Made by a program: the position numbers and the translations under genes. Below, one piece after another: positions 11,102 to 63,620 of a stretch of DNA of 64,000 bases. Every line of letters begins with the position of its first letter. Positions within the stretch are counted from its first letter, which is position 1. The DNA is from Zygaena filipendulae (taxonomy: Eukaryota > Arthropoda > Insecta > Lepidoptera > Zygaenidae): the NCBI GenBank assembly GCA_907165275.2, contig OU015659.1:8598501-8662500 (forward strand), given 5' to 3'. The notes under the pieces are model-generated. The model was not told where the DNA came from, ran no database searches, and saw nothing but the letters and a program-made list of their open reading frames with translations.

Positions 11102-11719
11102 GGGTACTTGCATGAAATTTATAATAAGAAATTGTGTCAATATTTCAAAAATAGATCCTTAGAAAAGCGTTCTCGTGAAAGACTTATTTTTATTTTACTA
11201 AAAAATTTTCAATAGTTTCCAAAATATTTTGTGAAACGTAACATTGCAACGAAACACCAATCACAGCCAAGCTTGACACATGACGTCACTTTATTTTTTT
11301 AGGAAACATTTACCTCATTCAGAGAAGGCAAAAGAAACTAAGTGCATACAGTCAACGCATATTTTCCATTTTTTGAAGTTTTTTACTTTAAAATGCATCG
11401 GTAAGATGCATTTCGATTCTTTACTGGAACTTTTGGAAGTAACTCGACACAGTTCATCCTTAATTTCACTTTTGGATATTGAAGTTATCTGTCTGTCAGT
11501 TTCACATGACCCTGTCAATACGACAGTGACATTTCTATCACAGATTAATAAGGTGTAATTTTGAACTAGTGACGTCATTCCGCGTTTCGGCGGTAAAGTC
11601 TAAAGTAGGAACTTTGAAACGCTCTATTTAATTAATTTATGCTTATATATTTTTTCTTTTTCTTGCTTTGCTTAAGTAGGCCATAAAATTGACTGAAAAA
11701 AAAATTCATGCAAGTACCC
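11102..11719 (+). mobile_element. MITE of the GGGTACTTGCATGAA family, intact copy 1
   Basis: The ends GGGTACTTGCATGAA and TTCATGCAAGTACCC are inverted repeats directly flanked by TA, which suggests a TA target duplication of the Tc1/mariner kind. The 618-bp body contains TGACGTCAC-type words and AT-rich spacers. Its open frames (92 and 87 codons) have no protein motif and recur only because the element recurs. Second copy at 41715-42338; third, split copy at 45892-58054. Confidence 0.75.
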
Positions 11720-41500: not shown

Positions 41501-44500
41501 TGGAATTCTCTGCTAATCACACTACACTAAATTGTACTCTAAATCGACTGCTGTAGGGTACATTTTAATGTATTGTGATCACTCGCTCTCTCTTTCACTC
41601 ACTTCAGAGGTTCAGCTTTCCGCGCATCTGATTTGAGTTGAATGCCTATCTACACCCAACCGGAATGCAGACCCTTTTATCTGTTACTTACGTTATGTGG
41701 CAATACTGACAATAGGGTACTTGCATGAAATTTATAATAAGAAATTATGTCAATATTTCAAAAATAGAGCCTTAGAAAAGCGTTATCGTGAAAGATTTAC
41801 TAAAAAAAATTCAATAGTTTCCAAAATATTCAACTTTTAATTTTGTGAAACCGAACGTTGCAACGAAACACCAATCACAGCCAAGCTTGACACATGACGT
41901 CACTTTAATTTTTTTAGGAAACATTTACCTCTTTCAGAGAAGGCAAAAGAAACTAAGTGCATACAGTCAACGCATATTTTCCATTTTCTGTAGTTTTTTA
42001 ATTTAAAATGCATCAGTAACATGCATTTCGATTCTTTACTGGAATTTTTGGAAGTAAATCGACACAGTTAACCTTAATTTCGCTTTAGGATATTGAAGTT
42101 ATCTGTCTGTCAGTGTCACATGACCCTGTCAATACGACAGTGACATTTCTATCACAGATTAATAAGGCGTAATTTTGAACTAGTGACGTCATTCCGCGTT
42201 TCGGCGGTAAGGTCTAAAGTAGGAACTTTGAAACGCTCTATTTCATTAATTTATGCATATATTTTTTTCTTTTTCTTGCTTTGTTTAAGTAGGCCATATA
42301 TCTTTAAAATAGACTGAAAAAAATTCATGCAAGTACCCTATTGACTGTATAATATACTATATGAGAACAGTTTTTTTATTTTGTTCCTTTGTATAAATAC
42401 AATTTCGCTCCATGTTATTTCGTCTGAATTATAACATGTAGATTGTAGGTAGTTAATACAATAATATTATGTACCTACCTACTAATGAAAAACAATATTT
42501 TCAAGGCAATCAATTTACGGTAATTTATACAAGGTTTAGATTAGACGTAGGTATTTATTTAGGTACGTAAGTACTGCATATTCTTAACAATTTCTTGAAC
42601 TTATCAAGCAGTGTTACTGCTACTTTTATGATTTTTCTGCCAATGGAGTATCTGGACTATTCTAAGTAATCCTAACTAATAAACAATATAAATACGAAAG
42701 TGAGTTTGTTTGTTTGTTACGCTTTTAACGGCTCAACCTATCATCAAGAAATTTTGCATGCACGTTGTCGGAGGTACAGAGAAGGACATAGGTTACTTTT
42801 TATCTCAGATCTTATTAGCTAGCTATCTCTCTTATTAGCTAGATCTCGAAGCTAGTTATTATTATAAATGCGAAAAATTTTTTATGCTTTCACGCCTTAA
42901 CGGCTCAACCGATCATTACGAAATTTTGGATACACGTTGTCAGGGGTACAGGAAAGAACACAGAGTACTTATCATCCCGGAAACTCCGAAATTGCCGCGG
43001 GTGAAAATGCAATAAATTTTGAATAGTGCAGTGTGCACTATTATATCTATCCTTCTGCTGTACCCCTGACAGTGTGTCAGGGGTACAGCAGAAGGATAGA
43101 TATAGCCTATAGGGCACTTTTATCCCGGAACTCCCGCGAGATTTCCGAAATTAAAAAGGCTGAAACTGCAGGGAACTGCAAGTATTGTAAATAAATACTA
43201 ATGTTAGGTTATTTGTTTGTTTCGTTATCATGTTTTAACTACTCAACTGATCATCATGAAGTTTTGCATACACATTGTCAGGGGTGCAAAGAAGGACATA
43301 GGGAACTTTTCGTGTCGGAAATCCCACGGGAACTGTACCGAACTGTATGTAATTGATTGGTGTAGATGTGTAAGGTGACTGACAGTATGCACTAAACACT
43401 ACACTATTATTTATTTTATTGCACATGTTTGGGAGCTCCGTTTTATATGTCACAAGTATTCATATGGAATTAACAAGATAAACAATAGTAAAGTTTGAAA
43501 CTATTAATATTACCGTAATTTACGGCACCAATTTACCTCTAGAGCAAGAGTGTGCACAGATTTGAGAGAGTATACCATAAATAGCAGACGGGAAAAAGAT
43601 TGGGTAACTAGGATAAGTATACACTTAACTAGGATAAGTGTATACTTATCCTAGTTACCCAATCTTTTTCCCGTCTGAGTGAAATCACTAAATTAATTCA
43701 ATCGGAATCAGATTGTTATCTTCTCTAACCAAGGACAGCCTGGGGCCGTATTTTCGAATCACTCAAATTACTGAAAAAAGTATGAGCACTTGTATGTAAA
43801 TTTGCGATTCCGTGTGTGAAATTAATTTGAGCAATTCAAAAATAACAGCCATAACAGTGAAAAGGGCACTCACTGTTGCTCAATTTTTATTGGTTCCCAT
43901 AGAAGTCACACTTTTTGAAGGCTATTTGACAAATTTTGTTTTTAGTCTGTCTTGTAAAGTAATACATAAGATATTGGACACATATTTTTTTTCTTTTTTA
44001 CGTAATAAAAAAATAAGGGCGATACATTTCGCGTGATGTCACTAACCAGTGCAGTTTGTATGGCAGCTTGTACGCGGTAAGTGACGTCACGCGAGCCCCC
44101 ACCCTAAACTTTAATGCGCTTTCTCTCTGTGTATTTTCATTTATTTGAAAAATAAAAAAATACGTGTCTAATGATTTTTAATTTTCTAACTGCCGGACTA
44201 ATTAGAATTTTGATTTTCAAAAGTTGTCAATATCCCTATTTTACAATAAAGTTCATTAAATCCTTACAATTATTATAAATGTGAAAATTACTTTATTTGT
44301 TTGTTTGGAAGTACCACTCCTACCCCTCACCAGTAACTCAGACTCCCAAAACAATTAATAATGATGGTATGGCAAACTGATTATAGAGAACTGCAGAGTT
44401 ATTATGGCTCCATATTTCAACCCTTTTCCTGTGGCAGTATTTTAGACTATTAGTTTATAAGAATAACCTTGACAGAACTGATAATTATTGTATATAACTA

Positions 44501-45891: not shown

Positions 45892-46460
45892 GGGTACTTG
45901 CATGAATTTTTTTTTTCAGTCTATTTTAAAGCGTCATTTACACTCGCGTACGAGCAACGAGGCGAACCACGCGGCGAGCCCCGAGCGACTGTTTACATTC
46001 GCGCTTCGTCGCTCGCCGCGTGGTTCGCCTCGCCGCTCGTGCCGCTCGCGTCCCCCGGAGCGGCTTTTTTGTCACGAGTCAAAGGGACGAAAAAGGAGCA
46101 AGGGGCGCGGGGCGAGGGACGAGGCGCGAGTGTGAACAGGCGCTAGGGGCTCGCCGCGTGGTTCGCCTCGTCACTCGCACCGCTCGCTTCCGGAGCGGTT
46201 TTTTGGTCACGAGTCAAAGGACCTCGCGTCAAAGCGAGCGTGGTGTTTACACTCGCGTTCTCGCTTCAGTCGGGTTTCAACTTTGGGCCGCGATGGTTGT
46301 GTGCTTTTAAACTGCATAATTGGATTGGTTGTAACTTGCAACAAGAAACGTTTTGGTTTCTAGAATTATTTTAAAAGAAACCGATTTGGGATCCCAAACA
46401 TAGATTCCACAAAAATAACCAAAAAGTAAACGTTATATGGACTAGATTTTATTAAGAAAC

Positions 46461-47110
46461 TAGCTGTGCTCCGCGGTTTCACCCGCGTGAAAAGTTTTTA
46501 TGTAACAACTTTTTTTTCTTGACATCCGATTTGAATGAAACAAAGCCTATAATTATGTAGATCCAGGCTAAGCTTAATCTACCTGCGAAAACCGCATGAC
46601 AATCCGTTCAGTAGATTCAGAGATTATCGCAAACTGAGAGACAGACAGACAGAAAAGATTTTTTAAAACCCCTTTTTTTATAGTTGGTTACTCTTCGTTT
46701 ATCGTCCCCTGTCAATTTTTGTTAAAAATATTCAATGTACAGAATCGCGGATTCTACTCTTTTATTATATTAGTACTAGCTGTGCCCGCGGTTTCACCCG
46801 CGCGAAAAGTTTCTATACAACAACTTTTTTTTATACAACAACTTCTTTTCCCGACATCCGATTTCAATTAAACAAAGCCTATGTAACTCCAGGTTAAGCT
46901 TAATCCTAAACCGCATGACAATCCGTTCAGTAGATTCGGAGATTATCGTGAACAGACAGAAAGACAGAAAACATTTTTAAAAACCCTTTTTTTGTGCTTG
47001 GTTACTCTTCCCCCCCCGTCCGTCCGCTCCGTTCCGTCCCCTGTCAGTTTTTGTTAAAAATATTCAATGTACAGAATCGCGGATTCTTTCTATCTTTTAT
47101 AGATAGATAG
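46461..47110 (+). mobile_element. Two non-LTR tails inside the left 2.3-kb copy
   Basis: Two related units, each with CGCGGTTTCACCCGCG near its start and AATATTCAATGTACAGAATC near its end (46461-46770 and 46785-47100). Their mirror images are at 56385-57020. A (TAGA)n tract follows at about 47100-47116. Confidence 0.55.
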
Positions 47111-47702
47111 ATAGATATGTAGACCTCCAACCGTACTAAACAATAAACCTTTCGACAGCATCTCCTGCGCAAAAAACAGTCGATGACACCCGGCGCAGAA
47201 GAAGATGATATTGACAATTTTATTTATTTTATTTTTTTAAATTATTTATTTAAAGTTAAATTATTTATTTAATTTATTTATTTTACTAGCTATTATATTC
47301 TAGCGTTTCCCCGCGGTGTCATCCGCGTTAATTTCAAAGATCCTGCGGGAATTCCGGGATAAAAAGTACCCTATCTGTTATTCTGAATTGCTTCTACTTG
47401 AATCAAGATCAAAATATTAGCCTATACATGCATTTAATTTTCGACGTTTACAAAATAATGGTTAACGACATCTCTTGATTATTTCAGGAATAAATGAAAT
47501 TTTAACCGTCGAGAACCTGTATCACGCACATACAGGCACAGGACAGTTCAAATTTCAAAAAACTTTTGTTACCAATACATAGATGGCGCAATATTAATAC
47601 AATAATTATTAGCCAAGCTTGGTAAAAAATCCTATAGAGCAGATAGCAGAGTATTATATTATCTGTGGTAGATATATAATATGATAATAGGAATCTATAG
47701 CT

Positions 47703-47708
<6 letters not shown>

Positions 47709-47736
<28 letters not shown>

Positions 47737-48450
47737 AATTAATGCACACAAGGACAACATAAAAAGAAAGAAAGTATAAAAGTAAACATGTACAAGGGTC
47801 ATGCTTATTCCATACAATTGGAATTTCTTCCAGCAGACCCGCAACAGGAGAACCGGTTAGAATTGGCAGATCTGGTGTGCCTCAATTTGATAGAATATAT
47901 AAAACACTATACAGAAATACTTAAAAAAAAAAAAAGAAGAATATGAATATTACCTAACAACACACATATTATTTAATAAGATGATATAAATAATAACTTT
48001 ATATACAATAAATAAATACATAATTACAAATAAATACAAAAATAAATAAATAAATACAATAACTACACAGGCAGAGACAGATAGTGTTCCTTGACTCGCT
48101 TTTTAAATAAGGAGATAGGTAGTCCTACAGTCGCGGATTTCATGAGGCAGAGAGTTCCACAAGGCAACTGCGCGGAAAGAGAAAGAAGAGGAAAAGAATT
48201 TGGTTCTGTTGGTATTGCCAGGTACAGATAGACGTGTTTTAAGGTGTGATCTACAGATAGAATCTGGTGGTCGGAAAAAGGAAAAACGTTCACGCAGGTA
48301 GGGAGGGGAGGTTGGGCTATGCAAGATATTAAATAGTAGAAAAAGGATCCGAGTTTCCCTACGGTGGCGGATAGGAAGCCATTTGAGTTCCTTGCGAAAC
48401 TGAGAGACATGATCGAATTTTCTTAAGAAACTAGCTTAATTATTATTATT
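47709..48450 (-). mobile_element. 5'-truncated LINE 3' end inserted in the left copy only
   Basis: On the minus strand the end of a LINE ORF2 is readable in two frames: ALWNSLPHEIRDCRT in one, then FKKRVKEHYLSLPV in the next. The C-terminal pattern LWNSLP...FK-x-R-x-K is typical of CR1/Jockey-type LINEs. A single frameshift separates the two parts. A 3' part of about 270 bases follows, rich in AAATAAATAAAT and ending in (TAAA)n at 47709. The right copy has an empty site here. Confidence 0.7.
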
Positions 48451-48772
48451 TTTTGATATTTTTATAGCTGTTTTATTGTAAAGTTTCAAATATTGTTTCA
48501 AATATTGTAAAGTTGAAATCCATTCAGTAGTTTTTGCGTGAAAACGTAACAAACATCCATACAATCCATACAAACTTTATAATATAAAGATTTTTAGAAT
48601 AATAAGTAAGGATTTCATTTATTAAAATTAATCGAGTAGTAGTAAAAGCTCAGTAAGCAAAGTCGTCTTGTTGCCGCTAACACTTCGACATCCTCCCTTG
48701 TTGCTAGCTCAAAGACAACTGAATTGAACGCACTGCAGGCCGCAGCTCTTTTGTCTCTTTTCCATCGATCGT

Positions 48773-48972
48773 GCGGTCGCGGTCGCACGCACGAGCGACG
48801 GGACGAGGTAGCGTTTACACTCGCACCTCGTACCCCACCACGAAACGAAGCACAAGACGAGGAACGAGGTGCGAGTGTAAACGCCGATAAAACAGCGTTT
48901 ACACTCGCGCCTCGTACCTGGCCACAAGACGAACCACGAGGCGAGGAACGAGGCGCGAGTGTAAATCCCGTA
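48773..48972. repeat. GC-rich array of ~75-bp palindromes at the inner end of the left copy
   Basis: Two successive units each start TTTACACTCGC(A/G)CCTCGT and close with the reverse complement ACGAGG(T/C)GCGAGTGTAAA. They lie at about 48817-48882 and 48897-48965. The mirror pair is at 49073-49225. Each unit by itself can form a hairpin. Confidence 0.7.
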
Positions 48973-50067
48973 TAAGGATATATGGCCTACTTAGACATAG
49001 CAAGAAAAAGAAAAATAATATATGCATAAATTAATGAAATAGAGCGTTTCAAAGTTCCTACTTTATACGGGATTTACACTCGCGCCTCGTTCCTCGCCTC
49101 GTGGTTCGTCTTGTGGCCAGGTACGAGGCGCGAGTGTAAACGCTGTTTTATCGGCGTTTACACTCGCACCTCGTTCCTCGTCTTGTGCTTCGTTTCGTGG
49201 TGGGGTACGAGGTGCGAGTGTAAACGCTGCCTCGTCCCGTCGCTCGTGCGTGCGACCGCGACCGCACGATCGATGGAAAAGAGACAAAAGAGCTGCGGCC
49301 TGCAGTGCGTTCAGTTCAGTTGTCTTTGAGCTAGCAACAAGGGAGGATGTCGAAGTGTTAGCGGCAACAAGACGACTTTGCTTTCTGAGCTTTTACTACT
49401 ACTCGATTAATTTTAATAAATGAAATCCTTACTTATTATTCTAAAAATCTTTATATTATAAAGTTTGTATGGATTGTATGGATGTTTGTTACGTTTTCAC
49501 GCAAAAACTACTGAATGGATTTCAACTTTACAATATTTGAAACAATATTTGAAACTTTACAATAAAACAGCTATAAAAATATCAAAAAATAATAGCTATA
49601 GATTCCTATTATCATATTATATATCTACTGTCTGCTATCTGCTCTATAGGATTTTTTACCAAGCTTGGCTAATAATTATTGTATTAATATTGCGCCATCT
49701 ATGTATTGCTAACAAAAGTTTTTTGAAACGTGAACTGTCCTGTGCCTGTATGTGCGTGATACAGGTTCTCGACGGTTAAAATTTCATTTATTCCTGAAAT
49801 AATCAAGAGATGTCGTTAACCATTATTTTGTAAACGTCGAAAATTAAATGCATGTATAGGCTAATATTTTGATCTTGCTTCAAGTAGAAGCAATTCAGAA
49901 TAACAGATAGGGTACTTTTTATCCCGGAATTCCCACAGGATCTTTGAAATTAACGCGGATGACACCGCGGGGAAACGCTAGAATATAATAGCTAGTAAAA
50001 TAAATAAATAATTAAACTTTAAATAAATAATTAAAAAAAATAAAATAAATAGAATTGTCAATATCAT

Positions 50068-50227
50068 TGTTATGTTTCAGTCAATTTATATCAAGTTTAT
50101 GGCAACACTCCCTCCTCACACTTGTAAAATACTTAAGATAGAATAATGGCGTGATTGTGATTTTGCATGTTCTTAAAATAAAGATTTAATTAATAAATAT
50201 AATGTAGTTATAATTTAATACATAACA
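50068..50227 (+). repeat. 5' LTR of the Gypsy element
   Basis: 160 bp, short for a Gypsy LTR, TG...CA ends. Contains AATAAA-type words near its 3' end. Confidence 0.9.
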
Positions 50228-50336
50228 AATACGAGGATGGGATTCTGGTAAAAGTGATGCTGTAAAAGAAAGAACTATTTGAAGATAATAAGGTAAAAGG
50301 ATTTTCAATTAATAAATAGATTTGTACTGAAAGCAA

Positions 50337-52730
50337 ATGGCGTACTTAGGCATAACCTCCATTGAATACAATGAAGATGAAAAATTCTCAACATATTTGG
50401 AACGGTTTAATAACTTTGTTGAAAGTAACGCAATAGAAGAAAAAAGAAGAAAGTCCGTTTTTCTAACAGTAATAGGAGCAAAAAGTTACGCCTTGTTGAA
50501 AAATTTATGTATTCCGGAATCTCCCACCGACAAAACTCTTAACGAAATTAAAGATATTTTACTTGCTCATTTTGAACCTAAAGGATCTGTAGTAGCTGAC
50601 AGATATAAGTTTAATCAAAGAATCCAAAATCAAAGCGAATCAATTAGAGAATATATTACGGAACTAAAAAGACTGTCTGTTAACTGCAAATATGGAGAAA
50701 ATTTAAATGAGATGATCAGAGATAGGTTCATATCAGGTATTAGGGAGCAAAAAATAAAATTGAGAATATTAAATGAACAAGAGGAAGGTATGACATTAAA
50801 CAAGGCAGTTGAAATGGCCTTGTCAATGGAAAAAAGTGATAAAAATATAAAGGAGATGACAACTGGCTTTGAAGATAGCAGGATACACAAATTGGAAAAT
50901 AGATCAGGACATGTATTAAATAAACAAAACTTTAGTAAAGAAAATTTTCAGAGAAAAAATATTAAAGAATTTTCAGGTAGTTCTAAATTTCAGAAAAGGT
51001 ACTTTGGACATACAAATAGGCAACGAGGAGAGCAGCTAAGAGAAGACAACGATTTTAGGAGAGATGCCAATCCTTCACAGACAAGACACGGTGATCAATA
51101 TCGCAGACCTCAGATGAACGGACAGTGTAAGTGTTGTGGTAAGATCGGTCATAATAAAGAAAAGTGTTGGTTTAAGGACCGAAAGTGTCGAGAGTGTGGA
51201 CGAGTAGGACATTTACAGTATATGTGTCAAAAAGGAAAAAGTCTACATTATTTTAACGGTCAAAATAATATGTTCGTACTAGCTGATTCAAACTCACCTT
51301 ATAGTAAAGTATTAAATGTTAATAATGTTAATTTATCTATGGAAATTGATACAGGTAGTGCTGTTAGTGCAATTAACTTAAATACATATAAACAATATTT
51401 CAGTAATATACCAATAATGACAAGTAATTTAAAATTAAGATCATATGATTTGACACCAATAAATCCTATAGGTTACATAGATACCTTAGTGATATATGAT
51501 GGAAAACATCATAAATTACCTTTGTATATTTTTGATAAGGGGGGACCTCCATTAATTGGTAGAAATTGGTTAAAGCACATTTGTTTGCTTAACTTGAATA
51601 CATTACAAGAAAATCCTATTGAAGTTAAGGAAAAGTTAAAGTCTATGTTTTCAAAAGTTTTTACTACTTCATTGGGTACATATACAGGTCAACAAATTGA
51701 GTTGAAACTTAAAGAAAATACAAGTCCTAAATATTTTAAAGCCAGGCCTTTGCCCTATACAATGAAAGAATTAGTGGAAGCAGAAATAAATAGGTTAGTT
51801 AAAGAAAATATATTATCTCCGGTGCAGTCAGCTGATTGGGCAAGTCCTATAGTTCCAGTATTAAAAGATAATGGTAAGTTGCGAATTTGTGGCGATTTTA
51901 AAGTAACTATAAATCAATATTTAGAGGATAATAAACACCCTATCCCAAGGATAGAGGATATATTTGTTAATTTACAGAAAGGACAGAAGTTTTCAAAAAT
52001 AGATTTAGCACATGCTTATCAACAATGTATACTTTCTGATGAATCTAAAAAGTTAGTTGTTATCAATACACATATGGGTTTGTTTGCATACAACAGGTTA
52101 CCTTTTGGCATTAAGACAGCACCAAATATATTTCAGAACATTATGGATCAATTGTTTAAAGGTTTAGAAGGAAAAGGTATAGCCACTTTCCAAGATGATA
52201 TTGTTATCACTGGAAAAGATGATAATGAGCATTTAAATAACCTAAAATTAGTTTTAACAAAACTCCAAGATGTGGGCTTAACTGTCAGTATAGACAAATG
52301 TATAATCATGGCACCTAGTATCCGTTATCTAGGTTATGTGTTGTCTTCAGAGGGACTTTTGCCTGATGAAAAGAATGTTACAGCTATTTCACAAGCACCA
52401 GAACCTAAAAATATGTCAGAGCTAAAATCTTTTCTTGGCATGATTAATTATTATGTTAAGTTTATTCCCAATGCAGCTACATTGCTATCACCTTTGTATA
52501 ATCTTACAAAAAAGAATATTACTTTTTATTTTAATAGAGATTGTAAAAATGCTTTCCGTAAGGTAAAGGAAATATTAGTTTCTCCTGTAGTCTTGGCACA
52601 TTATGATCCTCAGGCTGAGTTGTATTTGGCTTGTGATGCTAGTGCATACGGTTTGGGAGCTGTACTGTCCCAAAAGAAAAATGGTGTTGAGAGGCCCATA
52701 GCTTATGCCTCACGTACAGTCGCGGAATGA
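50337..52730 (+). pseudogene. Gypsy gag-pol, N-terminal part (gag, protease, RT, start of RNase H)
   Basis: 797 codons from the ATG at 50337. Order of parts: gag-like N-terminus; two zinc knuckles at about residues 263-296 (CKCCGKIGHNKEKC and CRECGRVGHLQYMC); aspartic protease with DTGSA at about 337; and reverse transcriptase from about 460 to 660, with ATFQDDIVITG holding the active-site aspartates (FQDD instead of YVDD). The tether and first RNase H motif YLACDASAYG lie near 762. The reading ends in a TGA that belongs to the terminal repeat of the inserted mariner-type element, so the stop is not original. Gag and pol are fused in one frame with no frameshift. Confidence 0.88.
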
Positions 52731-54308
52731 AAAGGTTCGTCACCTTAGAGTCGATATTCGTTTGCACTAGTACTGCAAGAGACCACTAATGCCAACATTC
52801 CAGTGCAAGAAACAGTGCTGCTAACATTTAAATAAACATGACGTTTGCTGTCAAATTAGGTTTTGCTTGTTTTTTCTATCTCGTCAATGCAATGTTACAA
52901 AATGTAATAAAACCTCATTAAAACAACAACAAAATGACAACTAGATATGAATAACAAGCAAAAGTTAATGAAAACTACGAATAAGTTTAATGACATTTAT
53001 TTTTAATAACTGGTATAACCACCATTAGCATCAATCACACTTTGTAACCTATTTCTCATGGAACCCACTAGACGAGAACATAGATCCGTGCCTCTAGTGT
53101 CTTCCCAAATAATGCAGTGGTTTTCTAAATCCTCCTTGGTCCTTTCATTTCTATTTTCCCATCGCTGTACCATTAAACCCCATAAGTTTTCTATCGGGTT
53201 CAAATCTGCAGATCTTGCCGGCCAGGGTATCACCACTATATCGCTATGCCTGTTGAACCATTCATTCACAATACGCGCAGTGTGCGTACGAGCATTGTCC
53301 TGGACATATCTGACCTCAGGAACCTCATCAAGTGGATACACGGTACGGACACTTGGTAGCATACTGTCTTCTAAAACAGACAGATAGTGTGTCGCGTTTG
53401 CCCTTGAAGGAAGAAGAACGAGCTCGCCTACTCCATCCGCTGAGATGCGTCCAGAACTGAAATTGGGCACTACGTGGTCTTCCGTATATCTCGTACTATT
53501 ATATCTCCATAAATTAAGCCTCCCATGTTGGCTCGACTTAAAACATTTTTCGTCGGTGAATATAGTGGTACTCCAATCGAAGTTCAAATAAGTCTGTGCA
53601 AATCTTAACCGTGCTTCCTTATGACCTGTTGTCAGAGCAACTTTTTTTACGTGTCGTCTATAATGTAATCCCATTGAATGCAATGCGTTTCTTATCACTC
53701 TTGGACAAACATCATATAATTGGGCGAAATGATTCGTTGACACAAAGCCGTTTTCTTCATATTGTCTTCTCATGTCTGATTTTTGTGCGGCGTTAAGAAT
53801 AGGACGGCGACCAGAATTATTGTGACGATGATCGACTAGTGCACCTTCTTCGCCATGTCTTCTTATCCAAAATCTCACACTATCTCTGGTCACATTTAGA
53901 CGACGTGATATCTCTGAGATGTTGTAGCCAGCTTCATGTTCGGCAATAATTGCTGCTCTTTCTTCAACACTTAAAGGTCTTGGCATTATAAAATTAGGAG
54001 AAATTATGATATTTTGCAATTATGACATTAACCGATTGACAATAGTATTAACAGAAATAATAATGTCAGGTTGAACTAACAAGAAAAGGTTATAGTTTAT
54101 GAGCAGTTTATCCATAATAATCTTGTTGACAAAATAAATAGTCAAACTACCTTGATCTGAACAATTTTGAACTTTACTAACGAACAGTTAAACTTTATTT
54201 TCTCTAACTCGAGCCTATTCTGTAACATAGTTTCAAAAAGTAATATGTGCTCGTGATACGTTGAACGAATCAATTTGAAAATTGACGAACCTTTTCATTC
54301 CGCGACTG
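52717..54308 (-). mobile_element. Tc1/mariner-type transposon inside the Gypsy pol gene
   Basis: 1592 bp. Perfect 26-bp terminal inverted repeats (52717-52742 and 54283-54308) begin CAGTCGCGGAATGAAAAGG. TA lies on each side (52715-52716 and 54309-54310), the family's target duplication. It carries one intact transposase frame on the minus strand. It was the last element to arrive in this nest. Confidence 0.92.
53003..54019 (-). CDS. Tc1/mariner-superfamily transposase, open frame
   Basis: 338 codons from the ATG at 54019; a likelier start is the ATG at 53986 (MPRPLSVEERAAI), giving 327 residues. It cuts and pastes the surrounding element. The N-terminal paired-type helix-turn-helix region (NISEISRRLNVTRDSVRFWI) binds the terminal repeats. 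A GRRP AT-hook-like motif follows at about residue 70. The catalytic acidic residues are in IFTDEKCF, VQDNARTHTA and SADLNPIENLW. I count 35 residues between the second D and the E, so DD35E rather than the Tc1 DD34E. The length is normal and there is no stop or frameshift, so it may be active. Confidence 0.9.
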   Translation of the reverse strand: MQNIIISPNFIMPRPLSVEERAAIIAEHEAGYNISEISRRLNVTRDSVRFWIRRHGEEGALVDHRHNNSGRRPILNAAQKSDMRRQYEENGFVSTNHFAQLYDVCPRVIRNALHSMGLHYRRHVKKVALTTGHKEARLRFAQTYLNFDWSTTIFTDEKCFKSSQHGRLNLWRYNSTRYTEDHVVPNFSSGRISADGVGELVLLPSRANATHYLSVLEDSMLPSVRTVYPLDEVPEVRYVQDNARTHTARIVNEWFNRHSDIVVIPWPARSADLNPIENLWGLMVQRWENRNERTKEDLENHCIIWEDTRGTDLCSRLVGSMRNRLQSVIDANGGYTSY

Positions 54309-54310
54309 TA

Positions 54311-56097
54311 CATTAAACAATGCTGAGAGAAACTATAGTCAAGTAGATAAAGAAGCTTTAGCTTTAGTATTTGGTGTTACAAAATTTAATCAATATTTGT
54401 GGGGTAAACAGTTCACTTTAATTACTGATTCAAAGCCTCTTCTAAGTATTTTTGGACCAAAGAAGGGTATACCAGTTCTAGCAGCTGGAAGATTACAGAG
54501 ATATGCTTGGTTGTTGTCTGGATATAATTATAATATAGTTTATGTAAAATCAGAAAACAATAATGCGGATTGTTTGTCTAGATTACCCTTGGAAAGATGT
54601 GAAATCCCTGAAATATCGGATTATACATACCTTAATTTCATTCAGGATAACAGTTATTTGCCTTTAGATTGTAAAAAATTACAAAAAGAAACTTCTGTAG
54701 ATCCTGTACTCAAAACTATTTTAAATTACATTTATTACGGATGGCCAAACCATGTAAATAATTGCTTGCAACCTTATTTTAGTAGGAAGGAAAATTTAAC
54801 AGTGGAACAGGGAATAATTATGTATGGTCATAGAATAGTTATACCTAGTAAATTGATTGGGGATATTTTAAGAGAGTTACACTCTACCCACTTGGGAATT
54901 GTTAAAATGAAGTCTTTGGCTAGATCATATTTTTGGTGGATTTCCATCGATAAGGATATTGAATTATTGGCAAACAGTTGTAGTACTTGTGTAGCACAGA
55001 GAATCAATCCTGAGAGGACAATGTTGCACTCATGGGAATATCCTAAGGCAGTATGGACACGATTACATTTAGATTATTTAGGTCCTTGCTTTGGTAAAAT
55101 GTATTTGGTATTACAGTGTGCATATTCCAAATGGATAGAAGTTCCTGAAGTGAGTTCAACATCTGCTTTTCAGGCTATCAATGTTTTAAAAAGAATTTTT
55201 ACAACTTTTGGTTTCCCGGAGTTGATTTGTAGTGATAATGGCCCTCCTTTCAGGTCGGCTGAATTTCAAAATTATATAAAGAGTTGTGGTATTAGACAGG
55301 TCTTTTCTCCTCCATACCATCCACAAAGCAATGGATGTGCTGAAAGTGCTGTTAAAATTGTAAAAAATTGTATTAAGAAAGCGGTATATGATAAAAAAAA
55401 TGTAAATGATAGTATAAATAATTTTTTAATGTTCTATAGAAATTCTCAGCATTCAGCAACAAATGAAACACCTTCACAATTAATGTTTAAAAGAAATTTA
55501 AGGATTAAGTTTGATTTATTGAAACCTAATTTACATGCTAATGTTCAAAGAAATCAGGAAAGACAGAGATTTTATGCAAGGGGAGGAGAAGTGAAACAAT
55601 TTAACATAGGACAACATGTAGTTGTTAGATCTTATAGGGAAAATAAATGGTTAGAAGGTAAAATAATAAAACAGTTGGGACCAGTTACATATTTAATTAG
55701 ATTGGTTGATACTGGTATAGTTTGGAAAAGACATTGTGATCAGATGAGATTATTTGAGAATTTAAATAATGATGATGATTGTTCAATTGAAAATGTACCT
55801 GTAAAAAGAAATAATGTGATTAGAAATGATATAAATGAAAATGTAATAAATAATGATATAAATGAAAATGTAATAAATAATGATATAATAATTAATGATA
55901 AGGCTACATCTAACATAGGATTAGATCTTAGTAGTCCTAATAATAGTGCAAAAAAAATTATTGCTCATAAAGATAGTGAACAGGTAGATGAAAATACAGT
56001 AAGTAATAATGTTAGTTTAAGGAATGAAAATTTAAGTACTAGTGGTTTAAGGCGGTCCACTAGAAACATTAAAAGGCCGAATAGACTTGATTTATAA
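54311..56097 (+). pseudogene. Gypsy gag-pol, C-terminal part (rest of RNase H, integrase)
   Basis: Open from the mariner junction to TAA at 56095-56097, in the frame expected of the first half. RNase H continues with SQVDKEALALVFG, LITDSKPLL and NNNADCLSRLP. Integrase follows: zinc-binding HSTH and CSTC, then the catalytic core with LDYLGP, CSDNGPPF and AESAVK; the last D and E are 35 residues apart. The C-terminal tail carries a GPVTYLIRL motif of the GPY/F type and low-complexity asparagine-rich repeats (about 55830-55890) that form imperfect direct repeats. It lacks its own start because of the mariner insertion. Confidence 0.88.
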
Positions 56098-56108
56098 GGG
56101 GGAGAGAG

Positions 56109-56268
56109 TGTTATGTTTCAGTCAATTTATATCAAGTTTATGGCAACACTCCCTCCTCACACTTGTAAAATACTTAAGATAGAATAATGGCGTGATTGTG
56201 ATTTTGCATGTTCTTAAAATAAAGATTTAATTAATAAATATAATGTAGTTATAATTTAATACATAACA
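56109..56268 (+). repeat. 3' LTR of the Gypsy element
   Basis: Identical, as read, to the 5' LTR. Preceded by the polypurine tract ending at 56108. Confidence 0.9.
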
Positions 56269-58054
56269 ATCATCTTCTTCTGCGCCGGGTGTCATCGACT
56301 GTTTTTTGCGCAGGAGATGCTGTCGAAAGGTTTATTGTTTAGTGCGGTTGGAGGTCTACATATCTATCTATCTATCTATAAAAGATAGAAAGAATCCGCG
56401 ATTCTGTACATTGAATATTTTTAACAAAAACTGACAGGGGACGGAACGGAGCGGACGGATGGGGGGGGAAGAGTAACCAAGCACAAAAAAAGGGTTTTTA
56501 AAAATCTTTTCTGTCTTTCTGTCTGTTCACGATAATCTCCGAATCTACTGAACGGATTGTCATGCGGTTTAGGATTAAGCTTAACCTGGAGTTACATAGG
56601 CTTTGTTTCATTGAAATCGGATGTCGGGAAAAGAAGTTGTTGTATAAAAAGAAGTTGTTGTATAGAAACTTTTCGCGCGGGTGAAACCGCGGGGCACAGC
56701 TAGTACTAATATAATAAAAGAGTAGAATCCGCGATTCTGTACATTGAATATTTTTAACAAAAATTGACAGGGGACGATAAACGAAGAGTAACCAACTATA
56801 AAAAAAGGGGTTTTAAAAAATCTTTTCTGTCAGTCTGTCTCTCAGTTCGCGATAATCTCTGAATCTACTGAACGGATTGTCATGCGGTTTTCGCAGGTAG
56901 ATTAAGCTTAGCCTGGATCTACATATAGGCTTTGTTTCATTCAAATCGGATGTCAAGAAAAAAAAAGTTGTTACATAAAAACTTTTCACGCGGGTGAAAC
57001 CGCGGGGCACAGCTAGTTTCTTAATAAAATCTAGTCCATATAACGTTTACTTTTTGGTTATTTTTGTGGAATCTATGTTTGGGATCCCAAATTATCGGTT
57101 TCTTTTAAAATAATTCTAGAAACCAAAACGTTTCTTGTTGCAAGTTACAACCAATCCAATTATGCAGTTTAAAAGCACACAACCATCGCGGCCCAAAGTT
57201 GAAACCCGACTGAAGCGAGAACGCGAGTGTAAACACCACGCTCGCTTTGACGCGAGGTCCTTTGACTCGTGACCAAAAAACCGCTCCGGAAGCGAGCGGT
57301 GCGAGTGACGAGGCGAACCACGCGGCGAGCCCCTAGCGCCTGTTCACACTCGCGCCTCGTCCCTCGCCCCGCGCCTCTTACTCCTTTTTCGTCCCTTTGA
57401 CTCGTGACAAAAAAGCCGCTCCGGGGGACGCGAGCGGCACGAGCGACGAGGCGAACCACGCGGCGAACGACGAAGCGCGAATGTAAACAGTCGCTCGGGG
57501 CTCGCCGCGTGGTTCGCCTCGTTGCTCGTACGCGAGTGTAAATGACGCTTTAGATTTTACCACCGAAACGCGGAATGACGTCACTTGTTCAAAATTACGC
57601 CTTATTAATCTGTGATAGAAATGTCACTGTCGCATTGACAGTGTCATGCGACACTGACAGACAGATAACTTCAATGTCCAAAAGCGAAATTAAGGTTGAA
57701 CTGTGTCGAGTTACTTCCAAAAATTCCAGTAAAGAATCGAAATGCATCTTACTGGTGCATTTTAAAGTAAAAAACTTCAGAAAATGGAAAATATGCGTTG
57801 ACTGTATGCACTTAGTTTCTTTTGCCTTCTCTGAAAGAGGTAAATCTTTCCTAAAAAAAATAAAAGTGACGTCATGTGTTAAGCGTGGCTGTGATTGGTG
57901 TTTCGTTGCAACGTTCCGTTTCACAAAATTAAAAGTTGAATATTTCGGAAACTATTGATTTTTTTTTAGCAAATCTTTCACGATAACGCTTATCTAAGGC
58001 TCTATTTTTGAAATATTGACACAATTTCTTATTATAAATTTCATGCAAGTACCC

Positions 58055-60094: not shown

Positions 60095-60612
60095 ATCTCC
60101 ACAGACATATTTTATATCGTGAAGTTTTTCGATTGTAATGTAAGCTAAGTCATCATTTCCAATATTTTTTACCCATTGTCGACATCTGAAATTAAAATAT
60201 CTATCAATCATGCAAGTACACTTAAAACAAGATAGAGTATAATATAGTTCTTTATACAGAAGACGAGGTTCACTTTATTACAATACGATCATAATACTTA
60301 ATGAAAACTGCAGTAAGTAATGAAAAAAGTATATGCAGCAGCAGCTATACAAAAATATTCCAAAATATTCACTATAACAGCATCATTCATTAAAGTTTAT
60401 CGACTCACTTTATCGATAGTGAAGATTTACATCACTATGGTTTACAAACATGCAAATATTTTTTCTCATTTCAAAAAGATAGTGTATTATTTTAGTCTTG
60501 CTGATAGCTGAAGAGAACAAAATACTTTATTACTTTACTCAAGCTGTACTTACCGGTCTTCATCTATAGGAAATTTCGTGATAAATTTCCTTTTATTTAA
60601 ATTTTGTCGACT
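60095..60612 (-). CDS. THAP zinc-finger protein, two internal exons (partial)
   Basis: Exon 60612-60554 reads NLNKRKFITKFPIDEDR to a donor CCG/GTAAGT. The next exon, 60185-60095, continues CRQWVKNIGNDDLAYITIEK ... KYVCGD to a donor GAT/GTAAGG. The acceptor TTTCAG/A fits phase 2, so the join keeps frame. The order F-x-KFP-x-D, R-x-x-W, Y-x-VC-x-D is the second half of a THAP C2CH zinc finger; the following exon should start HF. THAP domains bind DNA in chromatin regulators and in P-type transposases. The first exon with the two zinc cysteines and the downstream exons were not found, so whether this is a host gene or an old transposase is open. Confidence 0.6.
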
Positions 60613-61278
60613 CTATCTTTTTCTACAAATTACATACGTACTAAACGGTCTAATCGGTGCTATTTCAATACCCAATCACAAGAAAATAGTTTTTAATAGT
60701 CACACTGCACTTTTCAAAGCGTAAATCACACAAAATTTTTAAAAATCACACAATTATTTTCCCAAATAACAACATGCGTCGCCATGACAAACAGATGACA
60801 GATTGTAAGAAAGATTCAGAGACAAAAGACTGAAATGGCATGTGAGGCCATCTTTGATGCCATGGAAAAAAAAAAATTAAAAAAAAAAAATGAGTGCTAA
60901 ACACGAACAAAATTTAATTTGTTCCTAGTTGCGTTAGACTGCTCTCTGTGTTTGATCTGTGCGGTGGTAGTGTGGTAGATGTGTTTTTCTTTTTTTTTTG
61001 TGGAAATTTCAATTTTGTAAATAATAATTACGGTAGTTGTAAATTTCATTTAAAATTAATTAAACCAAATAACGATATGTAGTGCCTTACTGTGTTCTTT
61101 GAAAAACATTTGCATTGTGGAAGGAAATCTTAATTTTTTCGTTGAGGATGATCTCATTGACGTACTGACGTTACCTACGTTCTTTTTAGGCTTATATTTT
61201 ATTCGTTTTGGCTTTATTTAAGCTAGGTTCTACGACCTTGTAGCTTTTAATTTTAATAGTCATAGTAACTAAGTTAAC
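60613..61278. promoter_or_regulatory. Probable divergent upstream region between the THAP exons and the RhoGAP gene
   Basis: The two genes face away from each other here. The stretch should hold the RhoGAP 5' untranslated region and possibly the missing THAP first exon. No TATA box is placed with confidence; long A and T runs lie at 60868-60890 and about 60995. Confidence 0.35.
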
Positions 61279-63270
61279 ATGAAGAAACAGTTTTATAAGG
61301 TGAAGCAGCTGGCTGATCAGACATTTTCAAGGTACCCCTGTTATTCATTTTTATCATCTAGATTTATCTGATAAGATTTCTCTGTTTCTTCATTATGAAG
61401 ATTAAGTTGATTTTTATGCCTATATATCTATTTTTAAATCACGAAATCCTTAGTTTACTGGTTTAGTATTAACAAAATTGTTATTGAATGTATATCATAA
61501 AATTATATTCAGATCGGGAAAGGGTGAAGCCTTAACTGACGAGTTGCAATCAGCAGACAAAAAGGTGGAACATCTCCGAAATGCTCTCCAGGTGATAAGC
61601 AAGCGATTATCCACATGTGCTGGAAATACCCAAGGACAAGATCCCGCAGCTCGTGAGAAAAGGCTTAAAAAACTTCCAGAGTACTTGTTGGGTCTTTCTA
61701 TGTGTGAAGCCAGCAACTTTGATGATGAAGACAGTATATTGAAATTCATATTATTTGAATGTGGTAAGTTTTATTTACCATCCTACTAATATTATATACC
61801 CGAAAGTTTGTAAGTATGTATGGATGGATGGATGGATGTTTGTTACTCTTTCACGCAAAAATTATTGAATGGATTTAAATGAAACTTTACAATAATATAG
61901 CTTATACATCAGATTAACACATAGGGTACTTTTTATCCTGGAATTCCCACGGGAACTCTGAAATTAATGTGGGTGAAACCGCAGGGCACAACTACTATAT
62001 TATAACAATATTATAACATTAAAGATACTAGCTGTTCCCTATGGTTTCACCTGCATTAATTTTGGAGATCCCATAGGGATTTTGGGGTAAAACGTACCCT
62101 ATGTCCTTCTCTGACAATATGTATGTAGTAAGGATTAGCTTATACATATTTTATAGAATTTATTATTTTATTATAATTTGTATCCTTTAACTTTACTTTT
62201 ATTTTTATATAATCACATAAAACCTAGAGATAAGTAGGTTCAGTTATGTTAGTTTAGTCTTATCATATTTTACAAATTGAATCTATGTAAGTATATAAAA
62301 ATGAATCCCTATTTCACTTGGTCATGTCATCACATTGTAGGGAAAAAAGTTTGGAGTTTGTATGGGAATTCCGAAACTCATGCGCATGGAACCACGGGGG
62401 ACACAGCTAGTTAATTATAAATATTACTACCCTAACCAAGAGTCTACTTGTCTAACTCCAACCTACAGTAAGGTCTAGTCAAAGGTCAGAGGACTCTCCA
62501 TTACCTTACTATGACTAACTTCATATCACCTTATTTTTTTGTACTTGATATCTTGTTCCTTAAGTCACTTAAGGTTTCATTGAGATCTAGATCTTTTGGA
62601 GTGCAAAATTTAACTTAAGTATTTTTGGGATAGGTAAACAGGAAAAAATTCTTGCTAATGAAATAGCAGAGCATGAGCTAAAAGTGGAGCAGCTGGTGTG
62701 TAGCCCTTTGTCGACCATTATCGACCAGGACCTACCTGCCATCATGAAAGCAAAGAAATACCTCAGCCGACTGATAAGTGAAAAAGAATCTGCTGCCAAC
62801 AAGTGTAGTGTGAGCATTTTATAGAGTTCCTTTATTTACTTGGATAATTTGCCTTGCTAGATTATACATAGAGTTTTATGTCTACCTAAACTAATTAATT
62901 TTAATGTATCCAAAAATAATTGTGTTGTAAATAGAAAAAGCATGAGTTTAATACAGATCGGTTGGTTGTGGTTATGATATATGAATTTCCTATAGATTTT
63001 TACAGAGATTTTTTTCATATTCCTAGTATTTAGAACGGCAAAAAGAGGAAAATCCGACGAAATTAAGTGCAGCGCGTGAGGAATTGGAAGAGGCCGGGTC
63101 GCGCGTGGAGGCGGCGCGGGACGCCCTCGCCGCCGACATGTTCGCTCTGGTCGCCAAGGAGGCACAGCTGGCCCACACTCTGTTGCAATACGTCAAACTG
63201 CAGAGGGCCTACCATGAGTCTGCGCTGCATTCATTGCAGGACACCGTGCCAGAGCTGGAGAGGTTCATAA
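61279..63270 (+). CDS. RhoGAP92B: RhoGAP92B / ARHGAP17-44 type protein, N-terminal BAR part (runs off the window)
   Basis: Four exons: 61279-61331, 61513-61763, 62634-62809 and 63027-63270, with consistent phases (2, 1, 0, 1). The 241 residues start MKKQFYKVKQLADQTFS, nearly the start of vertebrate ARHGAP17 (Nadrin/RICH1). They continue through KKLPEYLLGLSMCEAS, LANEIAEHELKVEQLVCSPL and REELEEAGSRVEAARDALAA to YHESALHSLQDTVPELERF. This is a BAR domain: long amphipathic helices that dimerise and sense curved membrane. The RhoGAP domain, which inactivates Rac/Cdc42, should lie on exons beyond 64000. In flies the protein acts at synapses and epithelia. Introns 2-4 carry moth-type repeats. Confidence 0.85.
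61790..62000 (-). mobile_element. Moth-type non-LTR tail in RhoGAP intron 2
   Basis: Reversed: TGTTTGTTACTCTTTCACGC through GGTGAAACCGCAGGGCACAA. Further scraps follow at about 62028-62120 (plus orientation) and 62340-62410 (reversed). Confidence 0.5.
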
Positions 63271-63289
63271 GTATGTTGTTTTTTTTATT

Positions 63290-63620
63290 GTCATAGGGGG
63301 CAAACGGGCAAGTGGTATACCTGATGGTAAGTGATTACCGCCGCACATAGACATCTGCAACACCAGATGGCTTGCAGGTGCGTTGCCGACCTGGAATAGG
63401 GATGGGATTTATAAAGTGATCGTAGGTGGAACGGCAACGCCGCGATTCAACGTCTCGATAGTCTCGAACGCGCGCGCGGTTATTGGAGTCGAGCTTCTTG
63501 AATGCCACGTGCAGTAAAATGAACTCAGCTAGATCGGAAATGTTCAGTTGTCTGAGATTAGACACGGCCGAGCCGAACCTTTCTAGAAAGAGGTCGGCTA
63601 ACCTTTCTAGAGAGGCTATG
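63290..63620 (+). mobile_element. Moth dispersed repeat with CACCGCCGC-type core in RhoGAP intron 4
   Basis: ACCTGATGGTAAGTGATTAC, CCGCCGCACATAGACATCTG and GGTGCGTTGCCGACC form a block widely seen in lepidopteran DNA. A second block with TTTCTAGAAAGAGG and TTTCTAGAGAGGC follows. The 76-codon minus-strand frame here has no known domain. Confidence 0.45.

Follow-up and report, generated by a model that had tools for sequence, protein, structure and literature searches.

Two insertions of a probably non-autonomous DNA transposon form a giant inverted repeat inside one MITE of Zygaena filipendulae

Introduction

How does a giant inverted repeat come to lie within a single miniature inverted-repeat transposable element (MITE)? 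The question is raised by a 64,000-nucleotide stretch of the Zygaena filipendulae genome (contig OU015659.1, positions 8,598,501 to 8,662,500; hereafter the window, whose own numbering is used for positions), in which two copies of one ~2.3-kb non-coding element, arm L and arm R, lie in opposite orientation with a 93-bp spacing and split one single MITE. A prediction made from the letters of the window (the original prediction) had described a mobile family with a 4-bp TAAA duplication and Foldback-like ends, and had suggested either strong targeting or one insertion followed by inverted copying. The arms are two independent insertions of different copies. The family is likely a non-autonomous cut-and-paste DNA transposon with a TNA target, two copies of which inserted independently here, mobilised in trans by a transposase of PHIS type.

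Results

The three MITE pieces and the two oppositely oriented copies of ~2.3 kb are all present as first described. The first piece (45892-45929, minus strand) opens with the MITE terminal repeat GGGTACTTGCATGAA and ends at the first insertion with the target duplication TAA (45927-45929). Arm L, reading AGCGTCATTTACACTCGCG...CGCGAGTGTAAATCCCGTA, occupies 45930-48972 on the plus strand and is followed by the second TAA (48973-48975); its 3043 bp include an insert of ~0.72 kb. The middle piece (48973-49065, minus strand) supplies the 93 bp that separate the insertions. Arm R is the reversed copy (49066-57549, minus strand, 8484 bp including a Gypsy-type insert of ~6.2 kb) and is bordered on both sides by TTA (49063-49065 and 57550-57552), which reads TAA on the strand of the arm itself. 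The final piece (57550-58054, minus strand) ends with TTCATGCAAGTACCC. The predicted identity of the ends holds in both copies, with the exact left end located at 45931 and, reversed, at 57531, and the right end at 48959 and, reversed, at 49066. Alignment of arm L with the reverse complement of arm R, as had been suggested, gave collinear blocks of 98.4% (1284 columns), 93.1% (519 columns) and 99.4% (529 columns) identity. Repeat analysis found the inner arms at 48444-48975 and 49063-49594 (532 nt, 99%) together with five more inverted pairs; the uninterrupted core of the inverted repeat (48444-49594) consists of two 532-bp arms that are mismatched at 3 positions and separated by 87 bp.

An intact MITE copy at 41715-42338 (plus strand), when read on the minus strand, carries both target sites once each and uninterrupted, and the claim that it preserves the two empty sites is upheld. 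In the window GGGTACTTGCATGAA is found at 11102, 41715 and 45892, and reversed at 11705, 42324 and 58040; the MITE copies span 11102-11719, 41715-42338 and 45892-58054, with TA adjoining the ends on both sides. Exact MITE ends number 1372 and 1363 (2735) genome-wide, from which more than 1300 copies are estimated. Since the MITE is so common, an element within one is unremarkable, and two insertions in one MITE copy fit the clustering of element ends described below.

The two arms have separate 3-bp duplications, at different sites. The nearest copy to arm L is L009, at 5 differences in 2272 positions, whereas arms L and R differ at 27 of 2256. Ranked by similarity among 40 copies, arm R is only 28th for arm L and arm L 31st for arm R. 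In a midpoint-rooted tree of 39 of the 41 copies (L023 and L045 were too gapped to enter), arm L groups with L009 (support 0.93) and arm R with L044 (support 0.86), and the common ancestor of the two arms spans 14 of the 39 tips.

The 365.9-Mb assembly (56 contigs) was searched with a 470-bp query from the start of arm L, and all 40 candidates scored, of 216, matched the query over nearly its full length at 99-100% identity. Further copies with the same termini are plentiful (85 exact left ends and 224 exact right-type ends), and fixed ends, a target duplication and these copies bear out the mobile family that had been predicted. The 39 copies fetched are the best matches to that query, and older forms are therefore under-sampled. 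Their length is 2246-2323 bp in 32 cases, the remaining seven having inserts or deletions; mean pairwise divergence is 1.0% and mean distance from the majority sequence 0.53% (2276 columns). Such low divergence indicates that the family was recently active. A Pfam scan of seven frames of 104-126 amino acids, taken from both arms outside the inserts, gave no match, and elsewhere in the window there are matches to short interior-related stretches; the interior thus looks like non-coding repeat material.

The terminal repeats differ between forms of the family. L064, a 298-bp relative flanked by a TGA duplication, has perfect symmetric terminal repeats of 19 bp (TACGGGATTTACACTCGCG) and aligns at ~91% to the two ends of a 2.3-kb copy, the opening ~208 and the closing ~115 bases. 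Exact left ends of this kind number 52 in the genome, and L065, L066 and L067 share the same start. In the 2.3-kb form the terminal repeats match over ~13 bp only. The right tip TACGGG is kept, whereas the left tip reads AGCGTC in 39 of 41 copies (TACGTC in L047, AGTGTC in L010); L062 likewise has TACGTC. It follows that a subfamily went on spreading after its left tip had changed. At the left end the GC-rich DNA measures about 300 bp, at the right end 200-300 bp, and the exact motif TTTACACTCGCG occurs in one copy three times forward and once in reverse.

Matching 3-bp duplications flank 36 of 42 copies, both window arms and L064 included (TAA 17, TGA 8, TTA 7, TCA 3, CCA 1). Genome-wide, TNA directly follows 209 of the 224 exact right-type ends, against a background of 0.09. 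The right-type ends were listed in contig order (the first 100 of 224 and the first 100 of 209), and in the first 100 listed of the 209, some of which are left ends on the opposite strand, the middle base is A in 32, C in 30, G in 20 and T in 18. The duplication is therefore 3-bp TNA and not the 4-bp TAAA first proposed, a misreading that arose because each of the two window targets is TAA and the element itself opens with an A (AGCGTC...). The TAAA/TTTA flanks described for the two arms are found at three of the four borders, the other being TAAG.

A palindromic target, TC|TNA|GA, is preferred. At the 33 sites with matching duplications that were examined (33 of 39; L023, L045 and L064 were not entered), T stands at -5 in 26 and C at -4 in 16, G directly follows the duplication in 14, and the second base after it is a purine in 32. 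L020 and L028, on different contigs, are inserted at the same point, and their joined flanks are identical over 531 bp; an element-free version of that joined flank, 97% similar, lies in the window at 60408-60941. One of these copies may have travelled with the surrounding repeat, and the pair is counted twice in the duplication and preference sets, though possibly one event. In L038, L039, L066 and L023 nearly the same word (TTATGTC or ATATGTC) precedes a TAA or TGA target, which suggests a repeated favoured target.

Element ends are also clustered. Within 1 kb of one another lie 6 pairs, in 4 clusters, of the 137 exact left ends, where uniform placement would give 0.05 pairs; this is a weak null, as duplication, open chromatin or shared repeats could each produce clusters. 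Three of the six pairs belong to one cluster (C9:3944 kb), which includes a 174-bp mini-element (L023, 1022-1195) that adjoins a longer copy with TAA between them. The mini-element has left-type tips at both ends, and clusters rather than pairs are therefore the fair count. Right ends take part in other close pairs, namely that of the window, with starts 112 bp from each other, and one at C3:1457611 (L068, 25 bp apart). L027 and L067, the latter by one flank only, share an insertion point within another copy, around position 143, and a 145-bp spacing at C9:5851341 points to a possible third case of nesting. The strong targeting once suggested is thus supported in part, by the palindromic preference and by left-end pairs far commoner than under uniform placement.

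Transposases of a suitable type exist in the genome, since 150 of 421 candidates for DDE_Tnp_4 (PF13359) were scored as matches. Dense clusters of these Harbinger-type frames lie at C20:1.79-2.19 Mb, C21:2.80-2.89 Mb, C22 (2.4, 4.9-5.1 and 9.4-9.7 Mb) and C23:2.9-3.4 Mb; many frames in these regions are stop-free, and pogo-type frames share some of them. Several candidates for an autonomous partner were rejected. L023 (7.5 kb) carries a Copia-type frame by Pfam, the longest frames of L045, L026, L033 and L015 have 145, 136, 143 and 120 amino acids, and four other middle pieces have frames of at most 143 amino acids, the longest without a Pfam match. A 5.9-kb element on C6 with a pogo-type frame inside an 868-residue open frame was taken for a nested insert because three near-identical copies lack nearby exact left ends: there is none within 2.5 Mb on C10 and C23 and none on contig C22, the right ends on C22 and C23 not being among those listed. 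The 868-residue pogo-type frame (HTH_psq, DDE_1) occurs at C6:5906002, C10:2651421, C22:2424774 and C23:410023 and is 99-100% identical over 366 amino acids; this four-copy element was probably recently active.

Both arms were interrupted by other sequences. The ~720-bp insert, found in arm L and not in arm R (47724-48443, strand unassigned), is presumably like a long interspersed nuclear element (LINE), a label taken from the original prediction; its 119-residue frame had no Pfam match. Arm R holds a Gypsy-type long terminal repeat (LTR) retrotransposon (50068-56269, plus strand) with gag, reverse transcriptase, RNase H and integrase domains, 161-bp LTRs (50068-50228 and 56109-56269) that are 100% identical, and TCAT or ATCAT repeated at its borders. 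A Tc1/mariner-type transposase frame of 338 amino acids with a DDE_3 domain (53003-54019, minus strand) lies within it in turn, so that the nesting series runs from the MITE through arm R and the Gypsy-type element to this frame. Elsewhere in the window, a frame with a BAR domain lies at 63027-63293 (plus strand).

No description of the family was found in the available portions of the literature, including PMC4482050, PMC9710019, PMC9033116, PMC2836001 and PMC10288884, though it may still be published, and a literature search with the exact terminal letters returned nothing but papers unrelated by title. Of three patterns compared with viral contigs, two hit no stretch and the other hit one (L069), which lacks the TAC tip and is taken as a chance match; an exon compared with phages gave no match. 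We rate the ~2.3-kb family as new, recently active and non-autonomous, and the kind of element as already known.

Discussion

The family has what characterises a terminal-inverted-repeat DNA transposon: fixed ends, a duplication of fixed length, empty sites and terminal inverted repeats. The ends, the duplications and the absent coding capacity argue for cut-and-paste movement in trans. We propose that the family is a non-autonomous cut-and-paste DNA transposon whose 19-bp ends and GC-rich subterminal DNA enclose a non-coding interior and whose target duplication is a 3-bp TNA, and that a PHIS-type (Harbinger/NuwaII-like) transposase probably mobilises it in trans. Two different copies inserted separately and in opposite orientation at two TAA sites of one MITE, giving the inverted repeat, and the LINE-like piece and the Gypsy-type element would have interrupted the arms later.

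The PHIS class is suggested by the target. In the accessible text of PMC4482050, PIF/Harbinger duplicates TWA and NuwaII has the target C|TNA|G, and PIF/Harbinger target preference reaches 9 bp in that of PMC2836001. The family shares with NuwaII a 3-bp TNA in C|TNA|G (PMC4482050), here TC|TNA|GA, although the NuwaII flanks appear as a preference, with C before 18 and G after 15 of the 36 duplications. With PIF/Harbinger and Tourist-type MITEs it shares the 3-bp duplication, the wider target preference and the non-autonomous derivatives (PMC4482050, PMC2836001), but not TWA, since the middle base is C or G at 50 of the first 100 listed ends. The family would therefore be expected to work like a PHIS element, membership being left aside.

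The points that weigh against this assignment can be summarised as (i) a matching duplication is absent from 6 of 42 copies, although those of L032 and L036 would match as TAA had the first A been lost; (ii) the family repeats start TACGGG or AGCGTC, whereas most NuwaII elements start GG in what PMC4482050 gives in its accessible part; (iii) the hosts of NuwaII given there include no insect; (iv) no partner transposase was found, the nearest of the 150 scored DDE_Tnp_4 matches (of 421 candidates) lying ~11.8-11.9 kb from the 137 exact left ends, right ends having been listed just for the first contigs. The autonomous form of NuwaII has DDE and Myb/SANT proteins; neither was found with the ends of the family, where the DDE comparison covered the 150 scored matches and no search for Myb/SANT was made.

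A 3-bp target duplication is not exclusive to PHIS. Mobilisation by CACTA, Zator or another superfamily with a duplication of that length is the strongest alternative, though an unlikely one: the strict TNA within a palindromic preference speaks against it, and the ends of the family do not start CACT (no CACTA search was made). A search with PF07592, which we take to be a Zator-linked family, gave no match, but its controls were silent too and it is no proof of absence.

The inverted repeat could also be supposed to persist for what it does, as a source of double-stranded RNA acting on a neighbouring gene or silencing the family. The core (1151 nt) is predicted to fold into a near-perfect hairpin at -1027.5 kcal/mol, its 532-nt arms having 3 mismatches, and double-stranded RNA from it is physically plausible. 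The neighbouring gene is presumably MFSD11-like; its start codon, at 45312 (minus strand) and 580 bp away from the MITE, fits the predicted position 0.6 kb upstream of MFSD11. The arms, however, are interrupted by two insertions, and we consider such a role very improbable; the hairpin is probably incidental.

Still less credit can be given to a Foldback-like element with long, internally repetitive inverted repeats. The Foldback likeness of the original prediction stands for the GC-rich ends; repetitive, GC-rich ends recall Foldback, Galileo and Tetris. It fails for the rest, because the 2.3-kb form does not have long internally repeated inverted repeats at both ends, its terminal repeats are short (~13 bp, and 19 bp in L064) and the duplication is 3 bp where that of Foldback is 9 bp. 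The symmetric repeats of L064 thus indicate a terminal-inverted-repeat DNA transposon rather than Foldback. A single insertion followed by local inverted duplication, for example by template switching, is equally hard to credit and is rejected: the arms are adjacent, opposite and ~99% alike over most blocks, a likeness expected since family copies differ by ~1% on average, but each has a duplication of its own at a site present once in the empty MITE, and they are not sisters, arm L being far closer to L009.

Two independent insertions therefore account for the arms. A further and doubtful extension is that a lepidopteran NuwaII-like branch of PHIS has a transposase favouring the subterminal DNA of its own elements, in which case nesting at an internal site, clusters and the inverted repeat itself might be products of self-seeding. 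Were the transposase of NuwaII type, the NuwaII group would be placed in an insect, which the accessible part of PMC4482050 does not report. The locus indicates that a striking giant inverted repeat can result from two ordinary transposition events, and this young family of DNA transposons, with its TNA target, altered left tip and self-nesting, offers a tractable case for the study of how a transposase chooses its target.

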